The translations under genes were made by a program, and so were the position numbers. The notes beneath the pieces were generated by a model. It ran no database searches and was not told the DNA's origin. It saw only the letters and a program-made list of their open reading frames with translations. 64,000 nucleotides of DNA, taken from Lepraria neglecta. Its lineage: Eukaryota; Ascomycota; Lecanoromycetes; Lecanorales; Stereocaulaceae. The stretch covers positions 1,681,501 to 1,745,500 of the forward strand of contig CM065646.1 of the NCBI GenBank assembly GCA_033220425.1. Direction: 5' to 3'. Numbering within the stretch: the stretch's first letter is position 1; each line of letters begins with the position of its first letter. Below, piece after piece: positions 2,994 through 31,347 of the stretch.

Positions 2994-3040
2994 TGGCGTT
3001 TGCGGAATTGTAAGCGGGCCTTGTTCTTTTTGATGAAGGT

Positions 3041-4847
3041 TCAGTCTTGGTAGCTTTCTTCGAGGAGATGAGGCATTTGCTTTTCGAGGTTGAGGATCAT
3101 CTGGCCGAACATGCCGTTGGCCCAACCGAACCTGTGAGGAAAGATTTTCAGTCTGCTGGTCTATGGCTGAAGACACCCAAAGACGGTTCGAAAGAAATCA
3201 CAACATACCATTGCCGAGACCAGTCTCTTGCGTTCCACGAGTTGACAGTTTCGTGTATGAGGCCTGCCAACTGTCAGCTTATTCCATCAGGGATCAAGAT
3301 GGGTGCCACGCGGCTTACCAAGGCCATCTGTAGTGTTCAGTATCTGCCTCAACTCATTCCTTATCTCCTCTCCACTCGCATCCTCACTTGTCAGAATCCG
3401 CACAATACCAGCCAATGGCCATCCCTTCGTAGGCCCATTGTGCGGTCCGCCAATGGCATTGTAGACTTCGCCGAAAGCCCAGTACGGATTCATCTCGCTC
3501 AGTGCGAACACCCTTGTATTCTGGTAGACCTTATCTTTTGAGCTCACGTATCCCATCATCGGTGCCGATAGCAAGCTGGGGAGGTTGGCGTCGTCCATGA
3601 GATTCTGACTGCCATAGCCATCCACTTCGAAAGCGAACATTGCGCCTAGAAGGGGATGTGAAATGATACTGTATTTCGTGATCCCAGCGCGGATCTCAGC
3701 AGCCATCTCTCGCATTCGTTCCGTCAATTGCCGGCTTTTAAGCGTATCTATGTCTTGCATGATGGTCGAGGCTGCCTCGACATAGCGTGCGAACATCATA
3801 TTGGAGGGGATCAGGTATTGGAAGATGGTTGCATCGTCTGAAGGGCGGAACGTCGAGCGGATCATGCCAGTCCAGGTGATAGGGTTTCCGAGACCGTTGT
3901 TCGATGTCGTCTCTGAGCTTGATTTGTTTGGCTTACCATTGTGTAGCCGCTAGGTGCAATGTGTCCGTCAGCCGTATACGTAGCCGTACGCATGGCTTCA
4001 ACAGCATCCAGAATCACTTCCACAGTGTCGACCCATGTGTACTTCTTGAATGGTCCAATATCTCCGGTTGCATTGTAATATTCAGACGAGATCTGTAAGA
4101 ATGATGCAAGCGAATCAAGCTCCCATTTGCAGTCAAATGTTTTCTTCTGATCATATCCAACTTGCCCGAACATATGGACTGTGTTCTGGTGATAGGCGCC
4201 ATTGTGAGGAAGGGGTAATTGCGACTCGGGTGGTGGTTGGAAGGCATGGCAGTAGGGAGTTATCTTGATGTAGCGGGAGTGTACGTTGATGACACCACGA
4301 AAGAGGGCTGCAAGGGACTTAGGATCGGAGGATGCTTGAAGAACAGGTAGGTAGGATAGGATCTGGTTGGCGGAATCACGTAGCCACATAGCATCTCTGC
4401 ACTAATATGAGCCCCGAACAGGAATGGATTGGGTGTGTCTGGTGCTTACATGTCGCCTGTGATCACAAAGGCTAGATCTTCGTCTGTGAATTTGTCCTGT
4501 TTTCCTTCTTCCCAAGCAAAACCCTTCTATCTGACAGCAGTATCCAAAGTGTTTGGAAAGGCATTCTCGAATAGCCGGAAGAGGTCGGGGTCCTTGATCG
4601 TAGGCTTGAGGCGCTCGATGGCATCCTCCACTTCGTGAGAATAGTATGTCCGGCATCCCAGGGATGGCCTCTGGAAGGGCAGTTGATGCCTGCCTGTGGA
4701 GAAGTCGACTTCGCCTTCATGGCGCTGCGTTGCGTAGTGGGCGTAAAGAGGACATCGCTGTGCAGGAAGAGGAACGGGAGCTGAATGAACGCCTAGGAGC
4801 GTGCCCCAAAGTAGGAGGCAGAGGGAAACAGAGAGACAGGGATACAT
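3041..4847 (-). pseudogene. GH125 exo-alpha-1,6-mannosidase (Mug157-like), reading frame disrupted
   Basis: The N-terminus is a signal peptide (MYPCLSVSLCLLLWGTLLG), then family motifs follow in order: CRTYYSHEVEDAI, GKQDKFTDEDLAFVITGD, I-DAMWLRDSANQ, a block ending in TGMIRSTFRPSDDATIF, IGGPHNGPTKGWPLAGIVRI, and the C-terminal FGWANGMFGQMILNLE. GH125 enzymes remove alpha-1,6-mannose from N-glycans or mannan, usually in the secretory pathway or outside the cell. Exons are 4847-4450, 4396 to ~3319 (with a frame change inside), 3263-3209 and 3131-3041; introns 4397-4449, 3264-3318 and 3132-3208 all have good sites. Two lesions show: an in-frame TAG at 4527-4529, exactly where the family has Trp (TGG to TAG), and a shift of frame around 3890-3945 where no intron of credible length fits. 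Total length (~515 residues) matches the family, so loss looks recent. A sequencing error cannot be excluded. Confidence 0.85.
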
Positions 4848-6018
4848 GATTATCGGGAATCTAGTAGGTTGATTGAGCTCATGGTAAGCTCCCTAGCTTA
4901 GCCCCCTGAGGAGAAGCCGCCAGCAAATATAGCCCCCTAAACATACAGCACGCATACGCTTAATTGTTCTACGTAGCCTTCTTTCCGGCCTCTCGAATCC
5001 ATTTCCGCCTCTCGCCATGGTCAAGCGGTGCGGTTTAGCACTTCCGGTCCTCATTGATGTCAAGAATCTCGCAGAATCCTTCCTTGGGAAGGCACGACCT
5101 TGTTTTACTTGCCACAGAGAATGCTGAAGGATAAGTAAATCGAGATCCCACCACACAATTTTGAGTAGGCTGCTACTTCCTGCCCAACAGTCCTTCATAC
5201 CTTTCCTCTACACAACGGGTGACTTGATACATTCAGTCTCCAATAGACAGTCTCTCATTTCCTTAATGCACCTTTGTTTAGACAGCGTTGGGCGAACAGA
5301 GTCTTCTCTGATATCACAATAGCATTGGTCAAGATCCATCTCGGACAGAACTGACTAATCAGGTGCATCTTGTGCCTCAAACTGCGTCAAATGGCCTCAC
5401 AATTAGTGGCCTAGTATTATCAACCTACTCATATCTGCGACGCTTCGAGTGGTTCGGAGAGAGGCTTAATTGCCTCTGAGTCGAACGTGACTCAAATAGC
5501 TGATGCTTGAGGACACAAAATATTAGTCATGACGCACTGGTCATATCAATTAGCCCAGCGTAGGTTTGCTTCGAAACGGTCACCGGGTAAGTCGTGCTAA
5601 GGTCGTCCAACATTGGAAACATTATCGATCCTTGTTTGTGTCCAGGAAGTATGAATGTAGTGACATACCTCCTCTTTCCCCTCTCAATGGTAATTAAAAT
5701 GCTGTGTTGGTAAAATCTTGAAGTTGGCTGCTCGACAAAATCAAAGCAAATGATGCTAGCCCTTGGAGGACTACAGGGAAGAAGTCTGGGTAGACTTGAC
5801 CCATCAATTAGAAGGAAATGCTCGATCAAAATTCCATGTGAGACTATGCAAACCACATGCTATTTTGAAAAGCATTCATATAAAAAAAATTCAATAATGG
5901 GGAATCCTTGGCGCAACATTGTATTTTCCCAGACTTTTCTCCTCCTACACCAAAAAAGCACCGACCAACCATTCCCTGTTTCCCGGAAGAAGTAAGACAA
6001 ACCAAATAACCTGGAGCA
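4848..6018. other. intergenic, no gene recognised
   Basis: AT-rich spacer upstream of the GH125 gene. Open frames on both strands are short and lack protein-like composition. No repeat or RNA was identified. Confidence 0.4.
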
Positions 6019-6446
6019 ATGGATCGCCTTCATTTGGCAATCGAGGTTCGACACGTCGAGCGACTGCCAGAATTTCCTCGGTTTAGAAATCTGCCTCCTG
6101 GACTGGTCATCGCTGTCATGGCTCAGGCAGATTCCAAGGATTTGCGGCGTCTGATCGCAACTGGGAATCATGTTAGAAGTCTATGAAACATTAGAAATCC
6201 ATCTTCACACAAATGCAGGCGGTTCAATTTCTTGAGTTCCACGGAGTATTTGGGGAGATACCTTTGTTTGAGGATCTAGGACAGGAGCGAGCCAACAGCA
6301 ATGCCGTCATGAAACCCACTCCGGAAACCAGTAAGGAAGGCTCGCAGACCCTGGTTCAAGCGCAGCGCAGTAAAAGAAATGAAGCAGGAAATCCCAGACG
6401 GACAGAATCCATAGCTCCAAAGCAGAGTACAAACAAGGCTCTCTAA
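6019..6446 (+). CDS. hypothetical protein with F-box-like N-terminus
   Basis: Tentative two-exon model: 6019-6171 and 6219-6446, joined in phase 0 by a 47-bp intron (GTTAGA...TGCAG), giving 126 residues. The N-terminal part has the spacing of an F-box-like helix set (LPPGLVIAVMAQADSKDLRR) and is followed by a charged, disordered tail rich in K, R, Q and T. The family is not recognised. The alternative is that this is chance open sequence or the remnant of a longer gene that continues at 6459. Confidence 0.3.
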
Positions 6447-6458
6447 CCTCTGCGTACC

Positions 6459-7190
6459 GTGAGAATTCTAAATACTGGAGCTATCATCCGGATCCCTGTT
6501 CGAAGGGGTTCTCGAACTCCAAGACAGGACCGCCACCTAAAGGAAGTCGCCTTCGATTATACGTTCAGGGTTGGCACCAGCCGAATGAAAGACTGGGGAC
6601 TCTATCAATGGCTGCAGCATGACGACGGCTGGAATTTCCTTGAATTCTTGACTTACCTGCAAGAATTTTTAGACCAGCATTTCCGAGAGCTGAATCCAAT
6701 TTGGACGGTGGATGTCGAGACAAGGGTCGCGATGGTTACACTTGATAGGATGCATTGGCGGAAGCTTTCTTATGCTGGGAGTGCCAACGACGGCCGAGAG
6801 TCGGAGATGCAAGACAGAGTGGGAGATGAAGTCGAGATCTTTCGATAGCAGTCTGCCAACGTTCAAGACCGAGTCCTCCGGATCCTACGCCTCCTTATGC
6901 AAGGAATTGAGGATCGCGATTACCTCGACTTGTACACCATAGTGCCTACTCTTGTAGCTATATATGCTGATTGGAGGAACGATGGAAAGCCACATATGCT
7001 CGACGATGAGAGGAGTCTTAAGACATTTTGGTCGATAATAACTGGCTATCTTTTCATGTGGTTTTTTTTTTTCGGAGTACCGGTGATGGTACGACAGACT
7101 GAGGTCAGAGGGTGTGATGATCGGGGTTTTGATAGAACAAGGGTCGAAACAGCGGCAAGCCAAGGGTTTTGGGAAGTCGTGCATCGGTAG
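6459..7190 (+). pseudogene. hypothetical ORF remnant, unknown function
   Basis: An open stretch (6459-6845) begins without an ATG. It has protein-like composition in MKDWGLYQWLQHDDGWNF and RELNPIWTVDVETRVAMVTL, then meets an in-frame TAG at 6846-6848. After that the same frame continues to 7190 with the sequence MQGIEDRDYLDLYTIVPTL. This could be a fungal hypothetical gene with a missed intron, or a degenerate copy. No domain is recognised. Confidence 0.25.
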
Positions 7191-8324
7191 CTTGTATACG
7201 ACGTTGAGGGTCTTGAGTACTCTTGCACGAAAACAGAGGAGGGTTTGCGACTTGCTGAAGGGATCGGTTATCCCATTTGGGACAGCGGCATGTAGAAGGG
7301 CTTGTTGGGGGCCCTGTAGAAGATATTCCTTCGCCAAGGTAGTCAGGGTCAGCATCAACAAATCAGCAAGTCAAAGACAGATGTGTTTACTTGCAGCGAA
7401 AGGACGGCTAACGAGAGGAAGCTAGCTTTGTTGACCCGAAATCCATTGGAGCAGCGATTTTCGAGCCCCGCAGGCGAAGCTATCCTCTCAACTCTGATGT
7501 TCTCATCAAGAGGTAACAGCATGCTCGACGGTAATTGGTAGTAAGACCGAGAGCTGGTGTTCGATTCAAGGGCGAAGATTCACTGCATCCTTTGTGCACA
7601 AATTGGCGGAGACTAATCCAAAAGCGGCTGTAAAGAGCTTGCTTCTCTTTCACATACACACGCGTTCGAATCAACCCACCTTCCTTGACAAACAATTCAT
7701 GTCAACTAGACCTTATCCTGCAAAAGGCTGGTAGACAATAGCAATTCTACTTTTCCGTTCAAAGCTACGCGAGCGCGACGCACTACACAGAACGAACCGA
7801 TCACCAACCGTCTTCGTGCCTTGCTTAGTTCGGAGTCAAAATCACCTCGAGGCGTTCCTTTCACACTTTCTATACCTCTTTCGCCTAACACTAAGGACTG
7901 TGCATTTTCGTTGCCACAGAGGCGCGTTACCTTGGTTCCCACGACATCACAAGTCCCTGTCTACAAATACTGTGCAGTCGCCGACTGGCACGAGTCATTG
8001 TGAGATTGCTTGTTGTCTAAGAGGACCCGGTTGCTGAATTCGTAAAAGAGCATCAAGTTAGAGCTCGTCCTCGACATTCAACGACTTCCGTACAAAGGCC
8101 ACAACACGAGGACCAAAACACCACAAGGTCAAGCCAGGCTCGTCGATGAACACGCGTCTGAACTCTCCTTCTTTATTCGGCTTCCTTCCTCTTCGTGGCA
8201 TTCAAATTACTTGAACGCGTCAGTACACCCTCTTTGAAGCGATAAGAGCGCTGTTCCAACAACATTCCAGCAAGCTGACGCCTCGAGAATAACAGTCAGA
8301 TTTGCAAGAGAACACCGATTCAGC
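7191..8324. other. intergenic, no gene recognised
   Basis: Nothing recognisable apart from short overlapping open frames. The last ~200 bp probably contain the promoter and 5' leader of the gene starting at 8325. Confidence 0.4.
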
Positions 8325-8985
8325 ATGGCAAATTACGATGGAGAGTCAGAGCGCTCAGATATAATCCCCCGACTTGACGAGACTCACCCTGGTGAAGGGG
8401 GATCGTGCCCAATTAAATGCTCTTACGATGACGAATGTCGCTGCAACTGCGAGCAGTGCATGTTCAGACATCAGGCCGATGGCGAAAGTAAGAGGTTTAA
8501 CACCGTTCTCAAGCATAGAACCTTCACCGATAATGGGAATGAATACTTTCAAGGTCCGCGCCGTCGACGCTTTCATGTTAGAAAAGATAGGAATTCTCTA
8601 CTTCCGCTATGTGCCGTTCAGCCTCTCATGGGAAACCTCAGTGTGTTCAAAATTTTGCCGAACAAGGCCAATTGCATGGTCGCAAATGCTATCGGAGGAC
8701 TCGATATCGACACCAGCATCAACTCTCTCGAATTACCTCGCAATCTAACAGACCGCAACGCTTTCACTTTGGCCCTGGGCCAACTCCCCTACACTAAAAT
8801 GAGGCCATGGAACACGGACAATACCCTTTGGACAGATCGTTGCCTGAACAACAGAGGCGAGTAGACTTGCCCTGATGAGAAATCTGACAATTCGAACAAT
8901 TACACCCGTATCCTGCCATGCCTCGAGCCGTTCTGTGAGCGAGATTACCGAAAAGCCGTCAGGAAAGCGAACAGACTACAGATCG

Positions 8986-11298: not shown

Positions 11299-14172
11299 TC
11301 AAATCCCCCTACCCGCCAAAGCCGCCTTCAACTTCTTCTGAAACCCATGCACATGCTCCTTATCCATCATAGTATAATGCTCACCCTCCACATCATGAAA
11401 CCTGACCTCGCTCCTCGCAAACTCGCTCCAAGGCTCCAACCACTTCCCCCTCCATTCCCCCCTACTCTCAATCTCGAACCCACCCTTCCACGGCCCTGCA
11501 ACAAAAACATCCATACAACCCACCTTTCCACTTGGTTGAAAAGCCTTTCCGAGTGACTGCAATGCGAAAGCTGCCTCTGCCCAGCTCCCAAGTTTCTTCT
11601 TATCGAGACCCAACTCATGCATCCGCTCAGGTGGGGATAGTTGCATGACGTAATCGAGTACTAGGTCATGGGTATAGGACCGTAGCATCCCCGACACAGA
11701 GTCCGCATGTGCTTCCTTCATTAAGCCAATGAAGTAAGAAAGATGGAGTAACACTCCGATGAAATCGAGCTCGCGCATGCGATGTGCGATGTGAGGTGGC
11801 AAGTTGATGACGCCTAGGAAGGGAACGGTTTGGCCGTCGGCTTCGAAGATCTTGGCGAGCTCGAAAGCGAGGATGGAGCCGAATGAGTAGGCTGCTATTG
11901 CGTATGGTCCCTCTGGTTGTATTTGTTTGATGGCATTGTGGTAGATGTTGACGGCTTCTTCGATGCTGGAGAAGGGGGTCTCGCCAGCACTGAATCCACG
12001 GGCGCGGAGGGCGTAGACGGGGCGGTCGGAGAAGTATTTGGCTAGGTTGAGGAAGACGAGTACGTCGCCTGTGCCTGGGTGGATGAGCCAGAGAGGAGTT
12101 TTGGTGCCGTTTGTTTGGAGTGGGACGACTGGGCTGTAGGTTTGTGGCTGCTGGAGATTCTCAAGAGCGCGAGCCATGGTTTCGATAGTGGGATTGAGGA
12201 GAAGGAGGGACATGGGGATTGATAGACTGAATTCTGATTGTAGTTGGGTAGTGAATTTGACGAGGGCGATAGAGTCAAGACCGTAGGCGAAGAGATGGTC
12301 TGTGATGCCAATTGACTCTGCTGGGACATTGTGCTGCGAAATGAAGAGGTCGAAGAGGAGCTTCTCCGTATCGCATGTAGGAGGCTTTCGCTGAGAGAGT
12401 CGATAATTCCTGACCGATTCTGTGTTGGTCATTTGGAAATGAGCAAGTGCCCCAGTCTTGTAGGCTGTCTGGACTTTGACGCGGGAAATCTTGCCGAGTG
12501 ATGACTTTGGTAGGATTTCTTTGTCCACGGGAAAGACTTCATGGGGACGAACTCCGCAGACATTGACGCACACGTTTGCGATAGCATCATGGATGTTGGT
12601 TCTAGTGTCGGAGCCTTGTTCTTCGGTTTGGGGAAGGTACACAATGCAAGCGACTTCGGTGTTTGAACTTTCTGGTCGATAGGCAAAAGCTACCGTGTAT
12701 GAAGGCGTCACGCCAGGTATCGAAGCTTCTTCAATCGCAGTCTCGAGATCGATGGGAAGATAATTGATACCATTGATGATGATGGTCTCCTTGGCTCTAC
12801 CAGTGATGTTGAGCTGGCCGTCAGCGTCAATGAATGCGGTATCACCAGTCCTGAACCACCCATCTTCAGTAAAAGCTTCGTCGGTGGCCTTTTTGTTATT
12901 GTAGTACTCGGTGAAGACAGCAGGGCCGTGAAGTTGAAGCTCGCCTATTTCTCCATTCTTCAAGGGCTTATTGTCATTAAGAGAGTGGATCCGCATTTCG
13001 ATAGCGGGTGTACAGGTTCCATTTGCCACATATTCCAAACCCTTCCCCTTTTCGTATTCCGGGCAAATTTTGCTGTAAATCGCACCTGCGCCGATCTCGG
13101 TCATACCCACGCCCGGCCGAATGAAGTTGTCGCTAGTCCCATGGCCCTGCAAGATTTCAGTCAAAGAAACACACGGTTTCGTTCGAATTGCTTCGGCTCC
13201 GGTGATGAAAGCCTTAAAACAGCTCAGGTCAAGCTTGATAGACTGTTCTTGACCTAGAGCTCGCATTAAGGTCGATAAAAAGAAGCCAGGAGCAAAGGTA
13301 TACGACACACGATGCTCATGAATAAGGCGTAAGAAGAGAAGCGGGTCGACAAGGACGTCCGATGCGGCGACATGTACTTGTTCGGCTCCAAGCAGCATTG
13401 CATGAAGATGTATTTCAATGAGGTTAGCCACGTGATCCAGGCCGATCCAATTGAGGAAGATGTCCTTTTCTTTTGTCTCTAGCAGCGCAATTTTGCCATT
13501 GAGAACGTGAACGAGCTGTCCATGACGAAGACAGACCGCTTTAGCATTGCCCGAGCTTCCAGACGTAAGCATCAGGACTGCCAGATCCTCCGGTGCCTTG
13601 CTGTTGCCGGCTGGAGGATTTTTGAAAGTTTTAGATGCGGTATTTGACGTCGCTGAGCTCGTGAGGGTTGGGTGTTGAAGGCTGAGATTTAACACTCGAG
13701 ATGATGAAGTAGCTGAAGATGGTCCAGAAGACTCAACGCCATTAGGAATTTGTCCAAGGTATTCCACAGCGTGGATTTGCAGCGTGTCCTGGTCCAGAAA
13801 CTCAGGGATGAGAGCCTCAGTGGTGAGTACAATCGGATTTTCCAACAGCTCGCTGAGGTGAGATAGATGCTTCTTTCGTTGATTAACGTTGTTTGTGAAG
13901 GGTGGCGAGATGGCTGGAACATAACCTGCAGCAACAAAAGCCCAAAACCAACGGATGCTGTCCTCATGTTGATTGAAGTGCAGTAACACGATAGAGTCGG
14001 CTTTGATCCCTGGGATAGCTTCGATCTTGGAGGCATCGAGGGCGGCTCTCTCAAACAGCTCTCGATAGCCAATGTACTTCGGTGGTATCTTCGAGTTCAA
14101 GGGGTAGATCGTAATGCCAGTCTCGTAGGAGGCGCTTTTCTGGCAAATTTGATAAAGGTTATGAACCTCCAT
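11299..14172 (-). CDS. NRPS-like synthetase A-T-TE, arylpyruvate-dimerising type
   Basis: 957 residues in one uninterrupted exon, the usual size of TdiA/AtrA/MicA-type enzymes. The adenylation domain (about 1-570) has core motifs LMLTSGSSGNAKAV, GVGMTEIGAGAIYS, GWFRTGDTAFIDADGQ, GRAKETIIINGINYLP and LPKSSLGKISRVKV. The thiolation domain carries the phosphopantetheine Ser in FAYGLDSIALVKF. The thioesterase domain has the nucleophile motif AYSFGSILAF, the NLPPHIAHRM segment typical of this subfamily, and a C-terminal His in EGEHYTMMDKEH. The family activates aryl-pyruvic acids as AMP esters and dimerises two of them on the T and TE domains to quinones, furanones or dioxolanones (atromentin, polyporic acid, microperfuranone, phenguignardic acid); which product is made here cannot be read from sequence. 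There is no aminotransferase, oxidase or transporter beside it, so it is not in an obvious cluster. Confidence 0.92.
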   Translation of the reverse strand: MEVHNLYQICQKSASYETGITIYPLNSKIPPKYIGYRELFERAALDASKIEAIPGIKADSIVLLHFNQHEDSIRWFWAFVAAGYVPAISPPFTNNVNQRKKHLSHLSELLENPIVLTTEALIPEFLDQDTLQIHAVEYLGQIPNGVESSGPSSATSSSRVLNLSLQHPTLTSSATSNTASKTFKNPPAGNSKAPEDLAVLMLTSGSSGNAKAVCLRHGQLVHVLNGKIALLETKEKDIFLNWIGLDHVANLIEIHLHAMLLGAEQVHVAASDVLVDPLLFLRLIHEHRVSYTFAPGFFLSTLMRALGQEQSIKLDLSCFKAFITGAEAIRTKPCVSLTEILQGHGTSDNFIRPGVGMTEIGAGAIYSKICPEYEKGKGLEYVANGTCTPAIEMRIHSLNDNKPLKNGEIGELQLHGPAVFTEYYNNKKATDEAFTEDGWFRTGDTAFIDADGQLNITGRAKETIIINGINYLPIDLETAIEEASIPGVTPSYTVAFAYRPESSNTEVACIVYLPQTEEQGSDTRTNIHDAIANVCVNVCGVRPHEVFPVDKEILPKSSLGKISRVKVQTAYKTGALAHFQMTNTESVRNYRLSQRKPPTCDTEKLLFDLFISQHNVPAESIGITDHLFAYGLDSIALVKFTTQLQSEFSLSIPMSLLLLNPTIETMARALENLQQPQTYSPVVPLQTNGTKTPLWLIHPGTGDVLVFLNLAKYFSDRPVYALRARGFSAGETPFSSIEEAVNIYHNAIKQIQPEGPYAIAAYSFGSILAFELAKIFEADGQTVPFLGVINLPPHIAHRMRELDFIGVLLHLSYFIGLMKEAHADSVSGMLRSYTHDLVLDYVMQLSPPERMHELGLDKKKLGSWAEAAFALQSLGKAFQPSGKVGCMDVFVAGPWKGGFEIESRGEWRGKWLEPWSEFARSEVRFHDVEGEHYTMMDKEHVHGFQKKLKAALAGRGI

Positions 14173-15475
14173 GGCTCAATTATGACAATTCAGAAATATG
14201 TTGGTCGACTGGATACTGTGCTTTCTGCTTGACAGAAATGATGGCCTCTTATGATGCTTTTTGACTTAGCTATAACCAAGAAGGTAGTGCAGTTGGGTAG
14301 CCGACAAGTCGAGGAAGATTAGGGTGGCCTTGTGTCAAAGATTCCGTGAAGTGACAGCCGTTCAGCGAGTATTTGTGCAACAAGTAACCGCGAGTAAAGC
14401 TTTCACACAGATCACGGATGATATGGCGCTTTCCTACATATTCACAAGGAAGATTGCATTGGGAACTTAAAGTAGAAAATTTTCACTGTGTGACAAGGTT
14501 ATGCAAGCCGGATTATTGGAACAGAATGAAGTCAGGCTAAACCTCACCAGGAAACGCAATCCTTCCACGGTTGTCATACCCTGTCAAACTTGACAGTTTG
14601 ATTTTGCATCCATCATGGGGATTACGCATCGTGCACGAGGCCAGAGTCGGCTGTCTGCTGTAGCTCCAATATTTATCTTGTGCAAGAGCCCAAGATTGTT
14701 CATCGACAGGGCACTTGCCCGTCCCATTCAGTAACAAGCCGGTATGAAACCCAGAAGTTTGGGTGCGATGAACCCTGGCAATGGGCAAGTTTGAGACATT
14801 ATTGGAGCCACAACTAATAGGGTGCGTCGTCGTTACGACGGAGAAGCTCCCAGCTAGATTCCTAGTTCCCATACGAGATATCGATGACCACTCACATCTG
14901 CCTCGTTCAATCCGTTTTTTTATTCCCTAGATCTCTCCACGAAAAGAAAGTCCGTGCGACATTCGACGAGGAGAATACCATTGCCCTAACATCATTTGGT
15001 CCTCGACCTTGGGCGTTTAGAAGACCAGGATCGGAGTGCTTCGTACGTAAGAAGCGGCTGAGGGCATTTCCCCTATCATTCTGTCGTATAGGCACGGTAG
15101 GCCTGTGAGCGTGGAACGGCTACTCTGCTCAATCCCTTAGTATGTCCATCACTCACCAGTCGATGTCCGCGTTTGCTGTACCGTATCGTGGGGGAGGAAA
15201 GTCGAAATGCCCTTCCTCGCGTTCGAGCAATTTGCCACCTCAATGATTAGCGGAGCCTTACAAGGCTGAAGTCAAGCCACTACTGCCAAGATATTTTAAA
15301 CACCTTACCAAGCTTTAATCATGTCTGGACTATTGAAATGCAAAATCCATTTGCCTATTCCCTAAAACACAGGTGACTCGAAAATTCGAAAGCTGTTGCT
15401 ACTCTGCTACGTACAACGACCAAGAAGACGAGGTGCTGTCATCCTGTTCATTATCGAGCCTCCGAGGCGGAAAAA
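14173..15475. other. intergenic with one doubtful small ORF
   Basis: Holds the promoter of the NRPS-like gene. A 111-residue ATG-started frame at 14537-14872 (minus strand, start MGTRNLAGSF) has four Cys and five Trp/Tyr but no signal peptide and no recognisable family; I do not call it a gene. No repeat was identified. Confidence 0.35.
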
Positions 15476-15995
15476 ATGTTGGAAGCCCGACTTATACAGC
15501 TTTGCAAGTGCGTTGATGCTTTCGACGCCTCCTAGCAAACAGTAGGATTTGGGTTGCCCTGCAAAGCATCATGGTGCATACTAACAATCGTTTTCAGGGA
15601 GTGACTATATCCTTTGGCACATGTTGGGATCTCAAGTCGGCGGGATTCCCCTTTCCGAACCCATGCTTCCAACCCAAGGCATGATTCTGAATCTGGGCAC
15701 TCAACGACAAGCTTATCTATTGCACATTCTAGGCAGAGGCAGGGCTTGGGAAGGCTGGTGTACATGTTCCAATTCCATTATTTCAAAACTGCTACTAATC
15801 ATTTGAGTGTGTAGGAGACTACATGCGGCGGGACCATTGGAGAACGTACCATACCAAACGTGCAATGTCATTCTGGTTCGAGAGCGACATGACAATCCGC
15901 AACCACAAGACAGACAGGATAGAAGACCTGATAGGCAGTGGGACTTTCAGGACATTCTGCCGCCCAGCTACGCGACTTTGAAGAATGAAAGATGA
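15476..15995 (+). CDS. W-x9-I/EGW-LHA family small protein, copy A1 (PPSY subtype)
   Basis: Member of the tandem small-protein family. Exon 1 starts at ATG 15476 (MLEARLIQLCK), probably ending at 15507. Exon 2 (from 15598 or 15602 to 15757) carries ILWHMLGSQVGGIPLSEP, the family's W-x9-I motif, then RAWEGW. A 57-bp intron (15758-15814, branch CTACTAATC) splits the last Trp codon as TG|G. Exon 3 is RLHAAGPLENVPYQTCNVIL, then VRERHD and a C-terminal PPSY before the stop at 15993-15995. The first intron (GTGCGT...TTTTCAG, with TACTAAC) only keeps the frame if the slightly downstream AG at 15600-15601 is used, so this boundary is uncertain. No signal peptide or membrane segment is seen. Function unknown. 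Confidence 0.6.
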
Positions 15996-16294
15996 AGTGG
16001 TGCGGTAACCGCATTACGGTTTGTGTGACGGTTGGCCGGAATTGTGGGGCAAGGGATTAGCAAGCAAAAAGGCTCAAATATTCGCAAGATTTGAAATGTA
16101 AAATCCGCATACTCAAATTCATTGGTTAATTCTCAGTCTCTTGGGTGGTAGGCCTAGAATCTCACGGCTAGATTTGCCATTCATAGAATCTTCAGGCTTG
16201 CGAAATCAATCTGACCCACTGCATATACATGTTTCTATCATCCAGATCTGAATACGCGAGATCTTCTACTGTATTGTCTATAGCGTTGGAAAGA

Positions 16295-16810
16295 ATGGAT
16301 CAGAGGCTGATAGAACTCTGCAAATGCGATGCTAAATGCGGAAACCCTGGTGCAGGTGCGTCATCGCGACGCTCAGGCCAAGAAATTCCATGAGGCTTAA
16401 GAACGATCTTCAGGCCTCGGACGCTGCTGGACTACTGGCAACGAGTATGCATGGCACTTGACAAGCAGCGACAGAAACAGTATCCAGCTGTCAGAGCCGA
16501 GACCATACGATCCAGAGTCGATTTTGACTCTTCGAACCGCAGGGCAGCAAGCATTACTAAAGGTGCTTGCTAACGGCGGACCCTGGGAGGGGTGGTAAGT
16601 GGACTTCAAGTCTTGAATTGTGGGTAATTTCTGATATGGTGAATGCACAGGAAGCTGCATGCAGTTGGCCCGCTTGCGACTAATTATCAGGCTTGCAGTA
16701 TAGTCCTCGTTCGCATGCCGGCGGATTCACCACTACGAAATGCTCTTGAAGAATCGGACTCAGATGGTGAAGGACCTCCGAGCTATACTGATGTTCAGAA
16801 TGGGAGATAG
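16295..16810 (+). CDS. W-x9-I/EGW-LHA family small protein, copy A2 (PPSY subtype)
   Basis: The cleanest member of the A subgroup: exons 16295-16355, 16414-16594 and 16651-16810, 133 residues, all splice sites canonical. The N-terminus MDQRLIELCKCDAKCGNPGA has three Cys; then YAWHLTSSDRNSIQLSEP gives W-x9-I, LLKVLANGGPWEGW ends exon 2, and the intron splits the Trp codon TG|G. Exon 3 reads KLHAVGPLATNYQACSIVLV and ends with EGPPSYTDVQNGR. PPSY fits the PPxY motif bound by WW domains, for example of Rsp5-type ubiquitin ligases (family knowledge; binding here is inference). It lies 299 bp downstream of A1 in the same orientation, and both use a GTGCGT donor for intron 1. Function unknown. Confidence 0.7.
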
Positions 16811-16986
16811 TTAAGGCGACTTCCTGGCTGGATACAAGGAGCTTAACCTGGTCAGAGGAATAAATTTGTAACACATTTGGACGACGGCTAGTACTTTAAT
16901 GGTTGAGACAACCCAGTGGATGTTGGTTATCAATGAAATTCGATTAAGTTCTCTACCAACCTTCGTCTGGCCCCGGAAGGCCTCCT

Positions 16987-17413
16987 TCATTCTGCATGTC
17001 CAACTTCCACATAGCTTGGGGGCGGCGGACTCACTGACCTCGAACCTTCAACCAGATTTCTTAAGTTCTCATCGTTATCCTTTCGAACAAGTACTATCTT
17101 GCAAGTCTCCCACGTATGATTGTCAACAGCGTCTCCCACAGCATGCAAGCACCCGATCAAGAGCGATGTCAGAGACATTTATATTGATGGTTTCCCAGCT
17201 CCACTTACCACTCTTCCCAAGGCCCACCCGTTGCCAGAATCTTCTGTAAGAACACCACTGTTTGTGTTCCCATTTTCTGAATGGAATGCGCAGTGTAAGG
17301 TCCTGGCTCAGATAGTGGAATGCTATGGGTGGAGCTGCATGTAACGTGCCAGGTAAGATTGGCGCCAGCAGACCAGCAGTGCGCAGTTCCTTTAGACGTT
17401 GGTCAGAGCACAT
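16987..17413 (-). pseudogene. W-x9-I/EGW-LHA family, copy A3, inverted and degenerate
   Basis: Opposite strand to A1 and A2 but the same layout. DQRLKELR matches the A2 start, LTWHVTCSSTHSIPLSEPGP gives W-x9-I, KILATGGPWEEW matches the exon end with GTAAGT donor, and the last exon reads CLHAVGDAVDNHTWETCKIV, LVRKD and a C-terminal PPPPSY. Two defects: the N-terminal segment and the W-x9-I segment are in different frames with no intron between, and no AG acceptor is present just before the LHA exon (the site reads TCGG). The start at 17413 is nominal. Inverted orientation next to A2 suggests duplication with inversion. Confidence 0.6.
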
Positions 17414-17913
17414 TCTGTATTCAGTTTTGAATCATTGAACTTGCCGACGTACCTGCAGTTGGGTTTCCACACCTCCCACGACACTTACAACGCTCTACTA
17501 GTCTTGCTTCAATTTTTGGCTGTCTTCAACACCGAAGGAGGTTGTGGTGTCTGTAGCGGGAGACAGTATTTCATATACACGATTTGGCTCGGTGAAAGGT
17601 AGATATGAAAGCAAATTACCTTGAACATGGAGTCACTGATCGAGAATTGGCGGCTTTAGCGTTGGTAATGTGGGCATAAGAAGATGTTTCTTGGTAGGAG
17701 CGACTTTTTGCAGCCCAGTGGTGGCGCAATTGGCACCGCCCTACTCTATAGTTGGGCTTTCGTCGTTGCCAGATGCGAGGTTTTGAGCGCCTTTTGCAAA
17801 AGATTGAACGTCCACCTTACAATCTCATCCCGACGGCACACGTGACCTTCTCAGTCCATCTTATTTTGCCCGTGAAATAGAAACCTAACACCACAAACCC
17901 TCAATCCACCACC
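17414..17913. other. intergenic between divergent family copies
   Basis: Divergent spacer between A3 (minus) and B1 (plus). No independent gene recognised; the last ~60 bp are C/A-rich, as in many ascomycete 5' leaders. Confidence 0.4.
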
Positions 17914-18274
17914 ATGGAAGCCCGACCCCTCCACGCCCGCTACTTGCACAATAAAAAACGCGTCCGAGAATGGAAATTAATACACCCCGAAAGGCGCGGT
18001 ATCCGAGTCGCAGAAGCGCAACTTTCAAATGGAAATAATTGTAACCTCTGGAACATCGACCCCGAAGCCATGGCCTTAATCGATATTGCTGGTGATGGTG
18101 AACCTTGGGAAGGCTGGTTTGTCTCTACCGCTCACTCTCATAGATTCCAGAGTCAATCATGGTCTTGCAAGGCGATTACATGCTATAGGCAATTTGAGGA
18201 AAACCAAGGACGCCGATCCGATGTACCTCTTCGACTTTGTGCTCGTTCGTGATATTACTCCAACGTTTGAGTGA
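17914..18274 (+). CDS. W-x9-I/EGW-LHA family small protein, copy B1
   Basis: Two exons, 17914-18116 and 18172-18274, 101 residues, intron 55 bp. Start MEARPLHARYLHNKKRV; then REWKLIHPERRGIRVAEA gives W-x9-I; exon 1 ends IAGDGEPWEGW with the Trp codon split TG|G. Exon 2 is RLHAIGNLRKTKDADPMYLF followed by DFVLVRD and ITPTFE. It shares with the A group the W-x9-I spacing, the EGW end, intron position and phase, the LHA start and the VLVR block, but lacks the PPSY tail and the Cys-rich N-terminus. No signal peptide; predicted small soluble protein. Function unknown. Intact frame and good splice sites make it one of the likely active copies. Confidence 0.72.
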
Positions 18275-18877
18275 GAGCTCAGGAGGTTCTGGTGTTTCGG
18301 AAGGGAAAGAACTGCCTAATTATGAGGAGCGTTTGGAACGTTGATGGTAGCCATTACTCGGTCTGGTAGAAGATGAAAACCGCTTGGCATTCACATACCT
18401 GTGGGTAGTAAAATAAACTAGAATGCACCGCTTTGACAGGCTAGTATGCTGAGGAGGCAGTTTCACTGGCTAAGACTCCAAGACCTATCAGCAGCTTGAA
18501 CTAAAATGTGCTATTTGCAAATAAATCGGAGCTAGAAACATAAGATTATGGCGAACTGAAGTTCCGAATTGATTAAGACTGAGTTGCAATTCCAGATTTT
18601 TCTGTCATCGAGACAGCGCCTTCCGCGAATCCAAGTTTCTACCAGTTTTTTTAGAACGTTTTATTGGCTGACCAAACTTGCTCGGCACTGCGCAAGTACT
18701 AGCAGTCATTGGCTACAACCCATTGCAATCTAAACTTGCTAAAATCGCCACGACTAAAGAGAGCCAGTAATATATCTAAAAGGGAACTCAAAACCGAGCA
18801 ACAGATTCGAGATCTCAACACACAAAATTTTCACCATCGACTGCCCCTACACACCTCCACGCCTCCACACTCTCGGC
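18275..18877. other. intergenic between family copies B1 and B2
   Basis: AT-rich spacer with no recognisable coding sequence or repeat; it should carry the B2 promoter. Confidence 0.4.
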
Positions 18878-19216
18878 ATGACACGCCATCATTCCCAAGC
18901 TCGTAAGATTACCGCCGAAGGCGTCCAAGAATGGCAGTACGATTCCCATGAAGAATCCGGCATATCAGTGGGAGAGGCTACTGTTCTAGCCGATCATCCC
19001 ATCGATATGGAGTCGGAGATCAGGTGTTACTGCGATAGCTTTGGTGATGCTGTTACCCCTCGAGGCTGGTTCGTCAAGGCCCCATCCAGTTGTTTTTTTT
19101 GATATGCTGATAAGTAGTATTCAAGGCGATTGCATGCGATAAGTCCGTTGGTTAGGGCGGAGGGCGAACATGAGATGTATCATTTCAGTTTCGCGGTTTT
19201 GTATGACAATTTTTGA
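18878..19216 (+). CDS. W-x9-I/EGW-LHA family small protein, copy B2
   Basis: Two exons, 18878-19068 and 19126-19216, 93 residues, 57-bp intron with TGCTGATAA branch site. Exon 1 carries VQEWQYDSHEESGISVGEA (W-x9-I) but the end motif has diverged to TPRGW, still with the Trp codon split TG|G. Exon 2 is RLHAISPLVRAEGEHEMYHF then SFAVLYDNF. The N-terminus MTRHHSQARKITAEG is unlike the MEAR start of its neighbours. The frame is open throughout. Function unknown; the divergence suggests relaxed or altered selection. Confidence 0.65.
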
Positions 19217-19461
19217 CTAGGAGTTGAAGCTGCTAGGGCCAGCAAGCCTTCCAGATGGGAAATGGCTCTAGGTCGCGGCTAGGTAGAAAATCAAATTCCT
19301 TAAATTTCACATGGGTTTGCTATGAATTTGACATGTTCCTTATAAAAGTGAGTAAATCTTCCTTCCTTTCATCATCTTCAAAAACTGCATCTCACTTCCG
19401 CAAAAGAGCCTAATTCTTCCACATCAGCACCTCTTCAACTCTCAAGCACACCGAAAGGAAG

Positions 19462-19836
19462 ATGATGGAAGCCCGACTCGTCCACTGCCAAAACTTTCCC
19501 ACTATCGACGACAAAGCTCGAGAATGGCGCATTGCCAGCCCGCTGAGCTTCGGCATCCGTATAAGCGATCAATATTTTCTTCAACAAGGATATCCACTCC
19601 AATATCTTCACGTTTCTGCTCAAGATCGCGGGTGAAGGCGGGAAGGCTGGTAAGAATTTGTTGCTAATCTCCAAGCTTTTGAATGTATTTTGCTGACAAC
19701 TTTCTTCAGGACTTTACATGCAGTCAGCAATTTGAAGGAAACAAACAATATCGTTGATCCGACACAGTGCTTTGAGGTCTTGTTTGTGTGGGAGGTATTA
19801 GCTTGGACAAGGAGTCCGAAATGTTCGAGGAGATAG
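19462..19836 (+). pseudogene. W-x9-I/EGW-LHA family, copy B3, frameshifted
   Basis: Starts MMEARLVHCQNFPTIDDK and continues AREWRIASPLSFGIRISD (W-x9-I). After that the homologous text (FLLKIAGEGG) lies in another frame, and the EGW end is back in the first frame. The stretch GGCGGGAAGGCTGG lacks the bases expected for the Pro-Trp of PWEGW. The GTAAGA donor, the TGCTGAC branch and the exon TLHAVSNLKETNNIVDPTQC (19710-19836) are well preserved, and the Trp codon would again be split TG|G. This is a recently broken copy. Confidence 0.6.
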
Positions 19837-20021
19837 AAGGCGAAGAGGTGCTTTAAATATGAGGATTTCCCGGCTGTGACAGAGGGGAGTGTTCCAGTTA
19901 ATCGTGGTAGATAGTATGAGATTGAACATGGTATACAGGCCTACCAAGGCTGCTATTCCCCCGGAATCCTCTATCAGGATTCCGCATATGCAATTGCGCC
20001 GTAGCTCATAATTTCATATTG

Positions 20022-20423
20022 ATGGAAGCTCGACTAGTCCATCTCCGAAAGGCCCCTGCGATTGACAGAACGTGCGGATCGTCAACTATCGAAGCTTCGG
20101 CATTCGCGTCAACGAATCCTGTGTCTTAGATGCTTGCAAGCTCTTCTTCAACCTGACTATCAACCCAGACATCACAAGTTTCTTGACCACTATAGCTGGA
20201 GAAGGCGGACCATAGGAAGGCTGGTGAGTTCACGAAGGGTTCTGATCTAATATCGAGCTCGCTAAAAACTCCTTCTAGGACTTTGTACGCTATCAGTCTA
20301 TTGAGGCACACGCCAGACATCGTGGACCTCGTTCACTTCTTCGAGATCGTGTTCGCGCGGGATGTTGGAGCACCGGTAGGGCTTCCGGTCGAGTTCAATT
20401 CTGACCAAGACACTCGATGGTGA
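20022..20423 (+). pseudogene. W-x9-I/EGW-LHA family, copy B4, stop at the conserved Trp
   Basis: Starts MEARLVHLRKAPAID, loses frame, then continues as RIVNYRSFGIRVNESC and ITSFLTTIAGEGGP. The next codon is TAG where the other copies have TGG (PWEGW), followed by GAA GGC TG and a normal GTGAGT donor. Exon 2 (20279-20423) reads TLYAISLLRHTPDIVDLVHF and EIVFARDVG. Its DNA is close to that of B3, so B3 and B4 probably come from one local duplication. Confidence 0.6.
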
Positions 20424-20670
20424 GGATTTTCCGGCGGTGAGGGAGGGGAGTGTTGGTGTCAGTCGAGTCATGTAGTTCTGGTCGTCAAGAAGAGAGATTT
20501 TACCTTGGACAATTTCCCAAGGGTCTGCGTCGTTAGCGTTCATGAATAGATGGTAAGATCTTCATTCAGACAACATCTCAATAACATGCAGCACAACGAG
20601 TCACTTGTCCTGTGGTCTACAAATTCCCAGAGTATCAAATGACCGCGAAACGTGCCAAATGAAACCACGG

Positions 20671-26122: not shown

Positions 26123-26811
26123 TTATCGCCCGACAGCGATCTCAGCTCGAGCCATTCTTTTCCCTGCTCTAGATTGCGGGGCCAGCGGTAGTTGCATTTT
26201 CGGTTTATGGATGAAGTGGATGGCACTGTCTTAAAGAAGCGAGAATTCGTTGATATCGACTTTGTCGTTATCTCGACAGTCAAATATCGAATCGATAGAT
26301 GACGGTTGATTCGTTCAACTACCTGCCAAAGCTGCGATCATTCTCGTTTCTTGTGATGTAGATAAATCACGTTCTTTTTACAGCGCCTGAGTACTGGCCC
26401 CTCAGTGGCTTTTGCGAAGGAACCTCGACCTAACTGGCCAGTAGAGTCACTCATTTACTGGGAAATGCGTCGATGTCCATGAGAATAAGTGCTAGGCCTT
26501 TCATAGTCTTGGAGGACAAATCGGTATGTGTGAGCGCATAGGAAAGATTTCCATCTATTAAATGCCGCTTCCAAAGCCCTGAGATTGAATTGGATCTAGG
26601 TCATATTCGATTCCGCACTCAACCCGAGCAAGGTCGAGTATGTGCCTGGTATGTGAAGACGAAAGTATCACAATAGCTCCGTAAATGAGACTGGGATTCA
26701 GACTCGAATGCCACAAGCATTGGGATACGTCAAAGACGCGAGCTCTTTGTGTTGACAGGAGCGATATTTAGTATCAGGTGGCTATCAAACAGCACTTCGT
26801 TCACTGAATAA
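26123..26811. other. no gene recognised
   Basis: Spacer between the 2EXR/F-box-like copy and the 3' end of the NLR fossil. No coding signal seen. Confidence 0.4.
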
Positions 26812-29800
26812 CTATCTCGATAAGCGAAGGGCTTTTCTCATCATGTCTCGAAGCCAAGGAAGACCCGTATGGATGCGAGGTTCGTCCAGATGAGTTATGC
26901 ATCCTCCATTCCGTAGTAGCAGCTCCGCTTTTTTCGAACTTGGGCGAGGATCACTTTCAGCAGTCGTATGATGGAATCCTGAAGCTCCAAAGGCAATGTC
27001 CAAAGGCGTCCGCCCGTGTTCATCTAGGGTGTTGACATCCGCATCATATTTGAGAAGCAGCTTGATAAGGGCAGTCGGTGCAAGGTGCAGTGGCTTGCAC
27101 GCATAGCCTCTTCCTGTCGTGATTTCCGAGTCAGGGTTCTGTCCGTACTCCAGGAAGACTTCCACTAGCTTGAGTAAGCTAGACGAAATGCTAGAACTTT
27201 CTTCCCCACCGATGCCAGGCCAGCACTAGTGGAAGAGCAATTGGAAAGGTGTGCTGCCCTGGAAAATATTGTTGTGTCCTATGCCATAGGTTATCAGGAG
27301 GCTGGCCATTTGTGTAAGGTCATGGGGCCTTTCGAAGAATTGCACTCCATGATCGTAGTTTGAAGTTATTGATGCTTCGGTAAGGGTGGCCTTAGCGACG
27401 CAATGAGGTAAGGACTTTCCACTCCCTCGCACTAGCCGAAGGTCTGCCTGTAGCTTCTCTGCTATGTAGAGGCGAAGGTTCGCTACTACGGCGAATGTGA
27501 GGACTGAATCGATTGGATAGTATGTGCCGTAGTGTTTGTGGAGGTGCTTGATGGAAGTGAACTTCATGACCTGGTCGTCAATTCTATCTAGGAACGCTTG
27601 TTGACTCGAGCCAGTAGAGACCTCAGCAAGATCGGCGTTCGTCTTGAGGTCTCGCCAAAAGATGTGAGGTTCTTGATCTTTTGAAGAGAGATACGTGAAT
27701 CTCGATGAGGCTAGCATCGCTGTTATGAACCTACTGAGAAACGTATGTCCGTTTTCTGTACTGATTGCTGGCGTTGCGGAAGCCATTTGGACAGGGATTC
27801 CGGCCTGCTTACAAAGTTTTGTACAATCTCGGGCACAAATTGCACGGTAGGATTCTCTGACCCGTCGACAACGTCACTCAAGCCTCGGCAAAGGCCCATC
27901 AATTCGCGTCCGACCATTTGTAGCTCACTTGATGTGGGCAACTCTAATGGGATCTGGACCACGCAGTCTTCAATTGTGTCAAATGAAGCATAAGCAAGCG
28001 CCGCAATAAAATCAGAAAGGCCCAACCAAGTCTTCGAGCGCCGGACAATTTCCAGCATGTTGAAAACCCTCTCACCGTGAATTGCATCAACGTCCCCAAA
28101 GATGGCATCGTACATATTGGATATATCCTGAGGTGTAGTATAAATTCTCGTCTTAAGTTCTCCAAAGTTACCCCCGTTCGATTCACCGCACATCACAGAC
28201 TGAACAACCAGCTGGGCCCACAAGAAGCTCCCTTGTGCTCTGTCTACGATTTCTCGTGCCAAGATCCCGGCTCCCGGATACGAATCCCTGCGATGGTCCA
28301 ACTCCAGACGCTCATTGACAGAATCCTTAATATCTTGCTGGGGTTGATCTTGAATTCTGAACCAGGCGCTGATATCAAGCATCTGATCTAGCGACAACGA
28401 TGGGCGGCTAGAAAAGCAGACTTGTACTTGTGTAGCGGCGGTGGCCGGCACTCCGAGTATTGAACGAAGAAATTCCACGATGACTTCTACTGAGCCCTCG
28501 TACTCATCCAGAGCATCAATGAAGAGACATATATGGACTAGATTCCTGCTCTGCTCAAGTATCACTTCGAATACGAGTTCCAGGCTAGCAAGAGACCAGA
28601 CATTTCGTTGGAGCCAGATCTGGTTCAGATAGATTGGCAGGACGCTCCCTTGAAGCTATGGGCTTTGTTTGAGAATTTGACAGAGGACACTACCGAGCAG
28701 GCCTTCAAAAGATCTCTGTAGAGGCGTACCACTGTTCCAAAACTAGAAATCGGCAACGATGTTCGTGCGAGAGGGTTGCCGCAGTTTCAATAGCTCCAAT
28801 GTTTTAGTATTACGGTATATGAACTTCGTCAACGTCGACTTGCCGGATCCTGGTATGCCATTGATCCAATAGATTCCATGGCTCTGCGACAACCAGGATG
28901 CAAAACCAAGGTGCTCTCCCTCTCTCTCAAATCCAGTGAACACTTCTTCCGTACGGCTTAGCAACGGTCTCGTGCCGATATCTCATATCAAGACTCTCCA
29001 CAATTTTCTTTCCTATGAGACACTGTTAGCAGTTGTAGCCAATATCGAATGGAAAGCTTACTGATGTCCGCATGATTGATTTCTTCCTCTTCAAAGGGTT
29101 CTTCCGCAACGCTCACGTCAAGATCCTTACACACCGGGTCCTCGACAGCGGTATCCATAATCTCTGTGGGGCCATTCCTCAAGTCTAGTACCTCGTCCTT
29201 GGATGAAATCATGTTAATCTCATCGCTCAGCGCTATATCGTGGGCTTGATCCACATGCTGGATAGGAGGCTGAGCGGTAATTTCCTCATCCAAATTATGA
29301 ATTTCTGAGTGCCGAGCGTAACCAATGGTTCCCCAGTCAAAATCTCGCTGATGTCATCAAGGTGAGACACGATCTTGGCATAAGTTGAGTCATCCTCTGC
29401 GCATTTCACCATGTTCGAATGATCCTCGTTCACCGGGATAACGTAACGGGATTGAGGCCCGATTGAGACTGCTATCGCGGACGATTTGTCTCCTAAAATT
29501 TCAAAGGGACCAGTACGCGTCCACTGCCCCGCCGGAGAAAGCTAGGTGGACATAAGTATTCAGGTCTGCATAGAATTTCGAAAGACTCGCCTCTGTAGTA
29601 CGTGATCGCATTGACTCGTATGCGGACACAATGCGTATATATTTCAGGAACGCAATATTACTGAACTGCTAGTCTAATTCAGAAAGAAATGGTGATTCCG
29701 GAGATATTCTGGCGATCAATGACTCTTTGGTTGTCCATGCACCATTGACCGCAGATGGGACGTGTGCATTCCCTTGTTCGGAACACCAAGAAGTATGGCC

Positions 29801-30494
29801 CCTTTCACAAAGCCCAACATGGATTGTTCGATTTGGTCACCATTGGCTAAGAGTATCAAAGCCTTTTTCAACACGATACCTCCCAAACTATGAGCCAGAA
29901 AGATTAAGGATTTTGTAGAAGGAGAGCCTATGCCAACGCTCCTCAATGCATCTACAAGAGAAATTGCGATATCGTCCACAGTCTGGATGGATTCGCTTGC
30001 CACCAGCTGCGTGTTATATCCGTAAATGACGCTTCGAGCTTGTGGCATGTCTTTTGGTAGTTGATCCCGAAGCCACATGAAGTCATCATCTCCTCGATGT
30101 TTCCAAGAACCAAAAGGGTAGCTGCCTAGAGCAGAGATAGCGATGCAGCTGGAACGCGTTTATAATTCAGCTCACAACATCCCGGCGTACAGCACGAAAC
30201 TTACTCCAGAGTATGAATATTCCTTTCCGGATCATTGAGGGTCGTGAATTCCAGCAAATGCACATCCACAATGACATTGCGCTCATAACCCATATCACGT
30301 GTGGGTAACACCCATTCATCTTTCTCGTTGTCGAATGCAGCCGGTAAGTTCTGACACATCACAGTGGCAGTCTTTGTCGTGGGCCTCTCGCGAGTGCTCA
30401 GGCTCGATGCTAATGAGCAGATTTTGATGTTACCAGAAGGGTCTAGACCTTGTCCAATGCTCGACAAGAAATGGACCGTCTGGAGACGGTCCAC
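26812..30494 (-). pseudogene. NLR/STAND protein fossil: alpha/beta-hydrolase, NACHT, ankyrin
   Basis: Reading down the minus strand from MDRLQTVHFL at 30494: an alpha/beta-hydrolase (SesB/lipase-like) domain with the conserved entry ALGSYPFGSWKHRGDD, MWLRDQLPKDMPQARSVIYG and the nucleophile motif LIFLAHSLGGIVLKKAL; the linker TGPFEILGDKSSAIAVSIG; a NACHT NTPase with Walker A INGIPGSGKSTLTKFIY and Walker B CLFIDALDEYEGS; a helical region; and at least one ankyrin repeat (LLLKYDADVNTLDEHGRTPL). Fungal NLRs of this layout act in non-self recognition and programmed cell death. The first intron (near 30120-30210) is well formed. The whole ~3.7-kb gene carries roughly six or more breaks and is treated as a fossil; the domain order remains easy to read, so decay is not very old. 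Confidence 0.8.
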
Positions 30495-31347
30495 ATAGGG
30501 GGGAAGCTTACCATAGAAACCAGTATCATAATTGATGCTAATCTTACGATGATAGTGGAGTTGGCCATGAAGTCAGATCGAAAAATAGGCGCGATAGTAC
30601 TTCGCGTCAAGACGGAATCAGACACGCCTTCCTTCAAACCGTCCCTTCTCTCTCCATCATTTTCATCACCAAAAGTACAAGACTTATGGAAGATTGTTAG
30701 CATCCCTTTGTGCTCTAAATCCCATTGCTATCAGAGATATCATTCCGGTTTTTCGCAGAGACTATTGTTTCATTCTTTTGCTGCGATTAGCATAACCGTT
30801 GCATCGTCTTTCCATTGTACCCACTGAATCAGCAATCTTCTTACTTGAGAACCAACCAACATACCAGAGAGGTTTTGAATCAGTCACACTTTCCAAGAAT
30901 CCTATCGCAGCGACATTTCAGATCGGGAGCTTGAGGAAGATGCCAACGACGAGGACTCTGATACTGAAAGTGTAGAGACGGTGGTTTCAAGGAGCTGAAT
31001 GGACCTGGAGACGCTTTGGCTGGTTCTAGGAAATTACATTCCTTTGAAGATTTTCCCGCAAAACCTGACGTTCTCTAAGTATCCCCGTCAGAAAAATGCG
31101 TAGGGGATCATAAGCTTCGTTATACATTTATACGTTGTTGCTGCAAAACCTCTGCTAGGAGGTTAACGAGGGATCATCGCAGCAAGTCACGAAGATACAA
31201 CATTGTCACTACCATGCTCATTGACGGATCGAAGTATTTTTCTGATCGTGAATCTCCATTCCATCTACTAATCTCATACAAAAACATTCAGCACGCAAGT
31301 CGATCCACTACCAAATTGACACCAGCTTTTAGCCAATCCTTCCCACC
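30495..31347. other. intergenic, possible short acidic ORF
   Basis: Upstream region of the NLR fossil. A plus-strand frame near 30893-30999 encodes an acidic tail (ELEEDANDEDSDTESVE) but no upstream exon was found, so it is not called. The rest is featureless. Confidence 0.3.

Follow-up and report, generated by a model that had tools for sequence, protein, structure and literature searches.

Tandem array of small-protein genes in the window

We analyzed a window of 64,000 nucleotides from the ascomycete Lepraria neglecta (contig CM065646.1; C1:1681501-1745500 of a 42.0-Mb genome in 11 contigs), in which a family of small-protein genes forms a tandem array. Seven related loci lie between positions 15476 and ~20470, six of them on the plus strand (A1, A2, B1, B2, B4, and B5) and one on the minus strand (A3); the labels A3 and B4 are our own naming of copies. 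The plus-strand copies were found by six-frame reading, and A3 was added by a whole-genome protein search with A2. An earlier note on this DNA had counted seven related copies in ~5 kb, with A1, A2, B1, and B2 open and three others broken, and the count held: the spliced models of those four are open, and A3, B4, and B5 are broken. An eighth copy, C, overlooked in the earlier note, is also open and lies beyond the array interval (Table 1).

Table 1. Family copies and a neighboring receptor-like gene in the window (a slash marks the position of an intron)
Feature	Position	Strand	Description
A1, open three-exon model, 122 aa	15476..15995	+	Exons 15476-15507, 15602-15757, 15815-15995; protein ends ILPPSYATLKNER
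A1 TG/G intron	15758-15814	+	Between the second and third exons
A2, open three-exon model, 133 aa	16295..16810	+	Exons 16295-16355, 16414-16594, 16651-16810; protein ends GPPSYTDVQNGR
A3, broken copy	16990..17513	-	W-x9-I, EEW, and GTAAGT donor retained; acceptor AG lost
B1, open two-exon model, 101 aa	17914..18274	+	Exons 17914-18116, 18172-18274
B2, open two-exon model, 93 aa	18878..19216	+	Exons 18878-19068, 19126-19216; junction RGW/RLHA
B4, broken copy	19462..19915	+	Blocks split between two frames, with stops in frame; retains intron and TLHA exon
B5, broken copy	20022..20472	+	Trp lost, frame changes; intron and TLYA exon retained
C, open two-exon model, 190 aa	31348..31977	-	TG/G intron 31532-31588 (GTAAGT...CTGCAG)
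Degenerate NLR-like gene	26804..30572	-	NPHP3_N, 2.3e-5; remaining segments by eye

All five open copies in the window (A1, A2, B1, B2, and C) yield spliced models with GT-AG introns. A1 has an extra first intron, for which the model requires the less usual acceptor AGGGAG, and A2 has a GTAAGT donor at its TG/G intron. B2 is the most diverged copy of the array, and C carries an N-terminal extension rich in Pro and Ser. The earlier note had described a Trp followed nine residues later by Ile (W-x9-I) and a GW end (usually EGW) in every copy. The former is retained in C and in six of the seven array copies, the exception being B5; as for the latter, A3 reads EEW, B4 has an in-frame stop ahead of its REGW, and in B5 a stop replaces the Trp of WEGW. 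Two further features, both beyond the earlier note, are the usual start M-E-[AG]-R-L and a C-terminal PPSY; in A3, the CLHA exon terminates in PPPPSY. The sequence EDFPAV persists in the broken copies, past a stop in B4 and in another frame in B5. Repeat-induced point mutation was considered as the cause of the broken copies and rejected (TpA/ApT, 0.59-0.75 in the seven array copies versus 0.65 in the whole window).

The split Trp codon as a signature of the family

In A1, A2, B1, B2, and C, a phase 2 intron divides the last Trp codon ahead of the LHA exon (TG/G), and the next exon begins with [RKT]LHA. The earlier claim that all copies carry this intron is overstated: A3 has no AG at the acceptor. 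Three genome-wide DNA patterns (Trp codon, intron, and L[HY]A), written from the window copies, returned 4, 5, and 5 matches over 42 Mb, whereas their reversed-pattern controls returned 0 each time. The union of the matches comprises nine places (A1, A2, B1, B2, B4, B5, C, and two copies on another contig, C3), all of which belong to the family, in agreement with the earlier proposal that intron position and phase tie the copies together. Because the patterns were derived from window copies, only the two C3 matches are independent finds; these, together with the absence of stray matches, are the informative part of the search. A composite motif (W-x9-[IV], [GDE]W, GT at TG/G, and AG/G-NNN-L-[HY]-A) was found at 5 places in the window and at none in 60 Markov windows. 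The C3 locus and 11 other fetched loci had no occurrence either, so the motif is fitted to the copies in the window. The split Trp codon with its intron is a strong signature of the family, which is a clean case in which the position of an intron traces homology better than the sequence as a whole.

A second, more diverged array

A genome search with P0008, one of the related database proteins described below, matched C3:4633107-4633286 (E value, 0.005). The match reads MEGRLLRLERGVDHEWRV...GTWTDW/RLHAIG, with the same split Trp codon. Around it, we recognized by eye a second, more diverged array, likewise beyond the earlier note, of ~8 copies on one strand (minus), extending over ~6 kb (C3:4630348-4636329; ~2349-8330 of the fetched locus L042). 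Three copies (D1, Dg, and Dh) have open models with GT-AG introns, and four of the ~8 (Db, Dc, Dd, and Df) appear broken by eye; Da was left out of this count. The TG/G intron is followed by [x]L[HY]A in D1 and Dh, and in Dg it is followed by LEE in place of LHA. Across the three models that are open, the Trp-to-[IVL] spacing takes the values 8, 10, and 12, so that the exact spacing seen in the window is not a feature of the family.

Profile support was high for D1 (independent E value, 3.7e-16), but this copy was itself among the profile sequences. The values for Dd (0.0064), Da (0.011), Dc (0.056), and Dg (1.3) gave weak support. Dd and Dh are the copies matched by the intron pattern, and Db and Df were identified by reading alone. 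When D1 was compared with a profile of foreign B types only (A9), hhalign gave a probability of 97.3 and an E value of 2.6e-11 (one comparison) over 75 columns. From these similarities, we regard the C3 array as homologous to the window array. With eight protein queries of the genome, no third locus was found below an E value of 0.1, and the counts are lower bounds. Weak genome matches at C5:3045186 (E value, 0.17) and C4:4553571 (E value, 2.6) were rejected, as the family anatomy was absent by eye; another weak match lies at C4:3248158 (E value, 1.59).

Relatives and subfamilies

Three database searches retrieved 26 distinct related proteins (P0001 to P0026), many of which are fragments; in the last search, 22 of the 25 rows had E values of at most 1e-3. 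Only two of the 26 carry organism names, and both organisms are Parmeliaceae lichen fungi: P0003 (IMSHALPRED_006804) of Imshaugia aleurites is an A-type member with PPSY, and P0014 (Q9175_001727) of Cornicularia normoerica is a B-type member with EDFPVV. Both share the core and the GW/[RT]L[HY]A junction of the window copies, and their sources name them merely hypothetical proteins, with neither family name nor function attached. The family thus recurs in at least two lichen-forming fungi and, as judged from these sequences, is not confined to the window array or its genome.

The relatives fall in with the subfamilies of the window. A1 is identical to P0012 at 58 of 114 positions and to A2 at 49 of 113. 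The last exon of A2 matches that of P0006, which extends to PPSY, at 47 of 52 positions; another A2 relative, P0007, is frameshifted. In a tree of 19 rows, A1 and A2 cluster with three foreign A types at 100/98, in a topology with good support for only 3 of its 16 inner branches. This grouping and the identities indicate that subfamily A was already present before at least one species split. The same probably holds for C, which is identical to P0020 at 109 of 123 positions and to P0018 at 41 of 46, far above its identity to any other window copy. P0001 shares 97% identity with B1 across 31% of the B1 length, and the P0001 frame continues past the stop of B1. The B-type core has 41 invariant columns across seven foreign sequences.

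The intron is not universal among the 26 foreign proteins. A trace of it remains in 10, another 15 run through without it, and 1 (P0022) stops short. P0005, P0018, P0019, P0020, and P0025 end exactly at GW, P0023 and P0026 read W-Y-V, as a GTAYGT donor would give, and P0001, P0006, and P0007 start inside the intron or read through it. P0019 is 100% identical to P0003 ahead of the junction, where P0019 stops at GW and the annotated P0003 goes on. P0004, P0008, and P0016, all of the B type, run through the TG/G site, and the longest of their contigs measure 142-303 kb; from this run-through on long contigs, we infer genes lacking this intron in their lineages. The A types P0012 and P0013 run through the junction on contigs no longer than 1,228 bases, which are probable transcript contigs and would lend indirect support to splicing.

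As the earlier note had suspected, we found no named family: of the 18 members scanned, no two shared a Pfam or NCBIfam match, and there was no consistent PDB relative. An arrestin domain had no Pfam match at E values up to 10 in five proteins, nor in the 18 members. No paper recognizable as describing the family was found in the open-license PubMed Central (PMC) literature. A viral, bacterial, or plasmid origin was considered and set aside, as no relative was confirmed with the B-type alignment A9 in viral and genome contigs or with P0008 in plasmids, a search that covered the B type only. On the plain reading, these genes make up a genuine protein family that is apparently undescribed and for which no fold relative was detected.

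Predicted structure and tail motifs

AlphaFold was applied to P0008 (B type) with an alignment of 16 sequences. The best model had a mean predicted local distance difference test (pLDDT) score of 72.6, and the other four ranged from 63.0 to 43.4. Residues 1 to 100 had pLDDT blocks of 67-90, and residues 111 to 138 were almost all under 50. Strands were predicted at residues 2-12, 19-23, 31-33, 72-76, and 91-98, and a helix at 52-62. W21 belongs to the second strand and I31 to the third, and G70-W71 come right before the LYA strand. The model suggests a B type composed of a small core of alpha+beta structure followed by a disordered tail; a fold search gave no significant structural match for this core. 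N-terminal starts such as MEARLIHAHK are charged by eye, not hydrophobic as in the signal peptide of a secreted fungal effector.

The tails carry recurrent motifs. PPSY ends seven of the nine known A-type last exons (A1, A2, A3, P0003, P0006, P0012, and P0013), and the linker between VLVR and PPSY differs in both sequence and length. Among 11 distinct B-type last exons (P0004, a repeat of P0002, was dropped), 6 contain [DE]FP[VI][VL] (P0002, P0008, P0009, P0010, P0014, and P0017). PMC3439951 describes [L/P]PxY as the motif that WW domains of Nedd4-family ligases usually bind, and it resides mostly on an adaptor.

Possible function as adaptors

The family, its gene structure, its subfamilies, the recurrent tail motifs, and decay are observed at these loci. 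Given the PPSY tails and the role of [L/P]PxY as a WW ligand, we tentatively propose that the members are cytosolic adaptors with a variable core and a docking tail, renewed by tandem duplication and lost by decay. The core would comprise an N-terminal MEARL strand, the W strand, the I strand, a helix, the LHA/LYA strand after GW, and a VLVR/VFVR strand, with the intron sitting exactly at the beginning of the LHA strand. This core, strongly divergent between paralogues, is likely the partner-binding part. The short, presumably disordered tail would often bear a subfamily-specific motif: PPSY of type A is predicted to dock a ubiquitin ligase of the Nedd4/Rsp5 type through its WW domains, and [DE]FP[VI][VL], in the tail of most full-length B types, may serve another partner. 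Tandem duplication would yield new versions, many of which decay. The cytosolic location, the adaptor function, the WW binding, and the role of the core are read from sequence patterns and are put forward as predictions.

Several observations weigh against this proposal. Two A-like last exons lack PPSY, namely those of the frameshifted P0007 and of P0023, which has an A-like core with the tail YPPLEEG. The FP motif is absent from 5 of the 11 B-type last exons (P0011, P0015, P0016, P0021, and P0024), some of which are short or end early. Only 4 of the 26 foreign proteins, many of them fragments, contain [L/P]PxY, and C and the three open D models have none. Downstream of B1, whose frame stops earlier than that of P0001, LPNY lies in another frame, and P0001 reads LASY at this place. 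The AlphaFold model of an A type was poor (mean pLDDT, 48.5), and fold searches gave no significant match. PPxY is a short motif, and WW binding of A-type tails is a prediction.

The nearest known counterparts would be the PY-motif adaptors of Rsp5/Nedd4, among them the arrestin-related trafficking adaptors, with which type A has in common an [L/P]PxY beside a separate folded domain (PMC3439951 for the motif and its adaptor role). Unlike those adaptors, the family proteins have no arrestin domain match, types C and D and foreign B types lack [L/P]PxY, and binding in type A is only predicted. Arrestin-related adaptors are several hundred amino acids long, much longer than the ~100-150 aa of the family proteins. 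We consider it decidedly improbable that the family amounts to an adaptor system restricted to lichen fungi and built on a new fold, in which arrays would make variable small cores and fixed tails would wire them to constant machinery, PPSY recruiting a ubiquitin ligase and FP[VI][VL] another partner, as a modular, fast-evolving recognition-and-degradation repertoire. Were the adaptor proposal true, lichen fungi would possess a set of small adaptors for ubiquitin ligases that is still unstudied and might have a part in individuality or symbiosis, and natural variants would be ready to test.

Other explanations have to be set beside the adaptor proposal. The members may instead be lineage-specific proteins of lichen fungi with housekeeping or developmental roles, with the turnover of the arrays reflecting ordinary neutral birth and death. 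This is a real if doubtful possibility: the conservation of the B-type core and the return of the same subfamilies among foreign proteins fit it, and the large fraction of broken copies and the differing intactness of close relatives do not. A conflict interpretation, raised in the earlier note, is possible as well. In its specific form, the genes would serve self/non-self or anti-parasite recognition with no link to ubiquitin, their cores recognizing, or being recognized by, NLR-type receptors or foreign elements, and conflict would drive their turnover. The mixture of open and broken copies in tandem arrays at two loci, the strong divergence of paralogues, and a degenerate NLR-like gene 0.8 kb from C are consistent with such a role, but it is unlikely; against it, C is well conserved with P0020, and no NLR-like open reading frame (ORF) was noticed by eye around the C3 array.

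It is less probable still that we are looking at a decaying family with little function left in this genome. Three of the eight window copies are broken, as are, by eye, four of the ~8 on C3, but A1, A2, B1, B2, C, D1, Dg, and Dh retain open frames with GT-AG introns. That the genes are fragments of a known large domain, an outcome that the earlier note had said would refute it, is very improbable. Nothing was found in its favor: the family was not seen in any larger known domain, the Pfam and NCBIfam scans gave no shared match, and foreign proteins running from an N-terminal start through the junction (P0002, P0003, and P0008 to P0016) are 103-153 aa each on their own.

Genomic neighborhood

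The degenerate NLR-like gene near C combines a hydrolase-like segment with AHSLGG, a NACHT P-loop-like GIPGSGKST, and an ankyrin-like end, interrupted by stops and frame changes. Such a neighborhood is not supported as a trait of the family, as no counterpart was noticed in the ~20 kb flanking the C3 array on each side (ORF listings read by eye, not family-scanned). In fungal NLR cell-death clusters such as nwd2/het-S, small-protein genes lie near NLR genes (PMC12881547). The arrangement is shared at copy C only; unlike in nwd2/het-S, the NLR-like gene is degenerate, the small proteins matched no cell-death or amyloid domain, and the neighborhood was not seen at C3.

Elsewhere in the window, a single minus-strand ORF of 958 residues (11299-14175) resembles a nonribosomal peptide synthetase, with AMP-binding, phosphopantetheine, and thioesterase domains. 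Two minus-strand ORFs in different frames (46002-47893) together resemble one AMP-binding enzyme gene, perhaps with an intron. Another long ORF occupies 33129-35585 on the minus strand; on the opposite (plus) strand, CLHA recurs at multiples of 93 bases (34688-35071), which suggests a 93-base repeat unrelated to the family.

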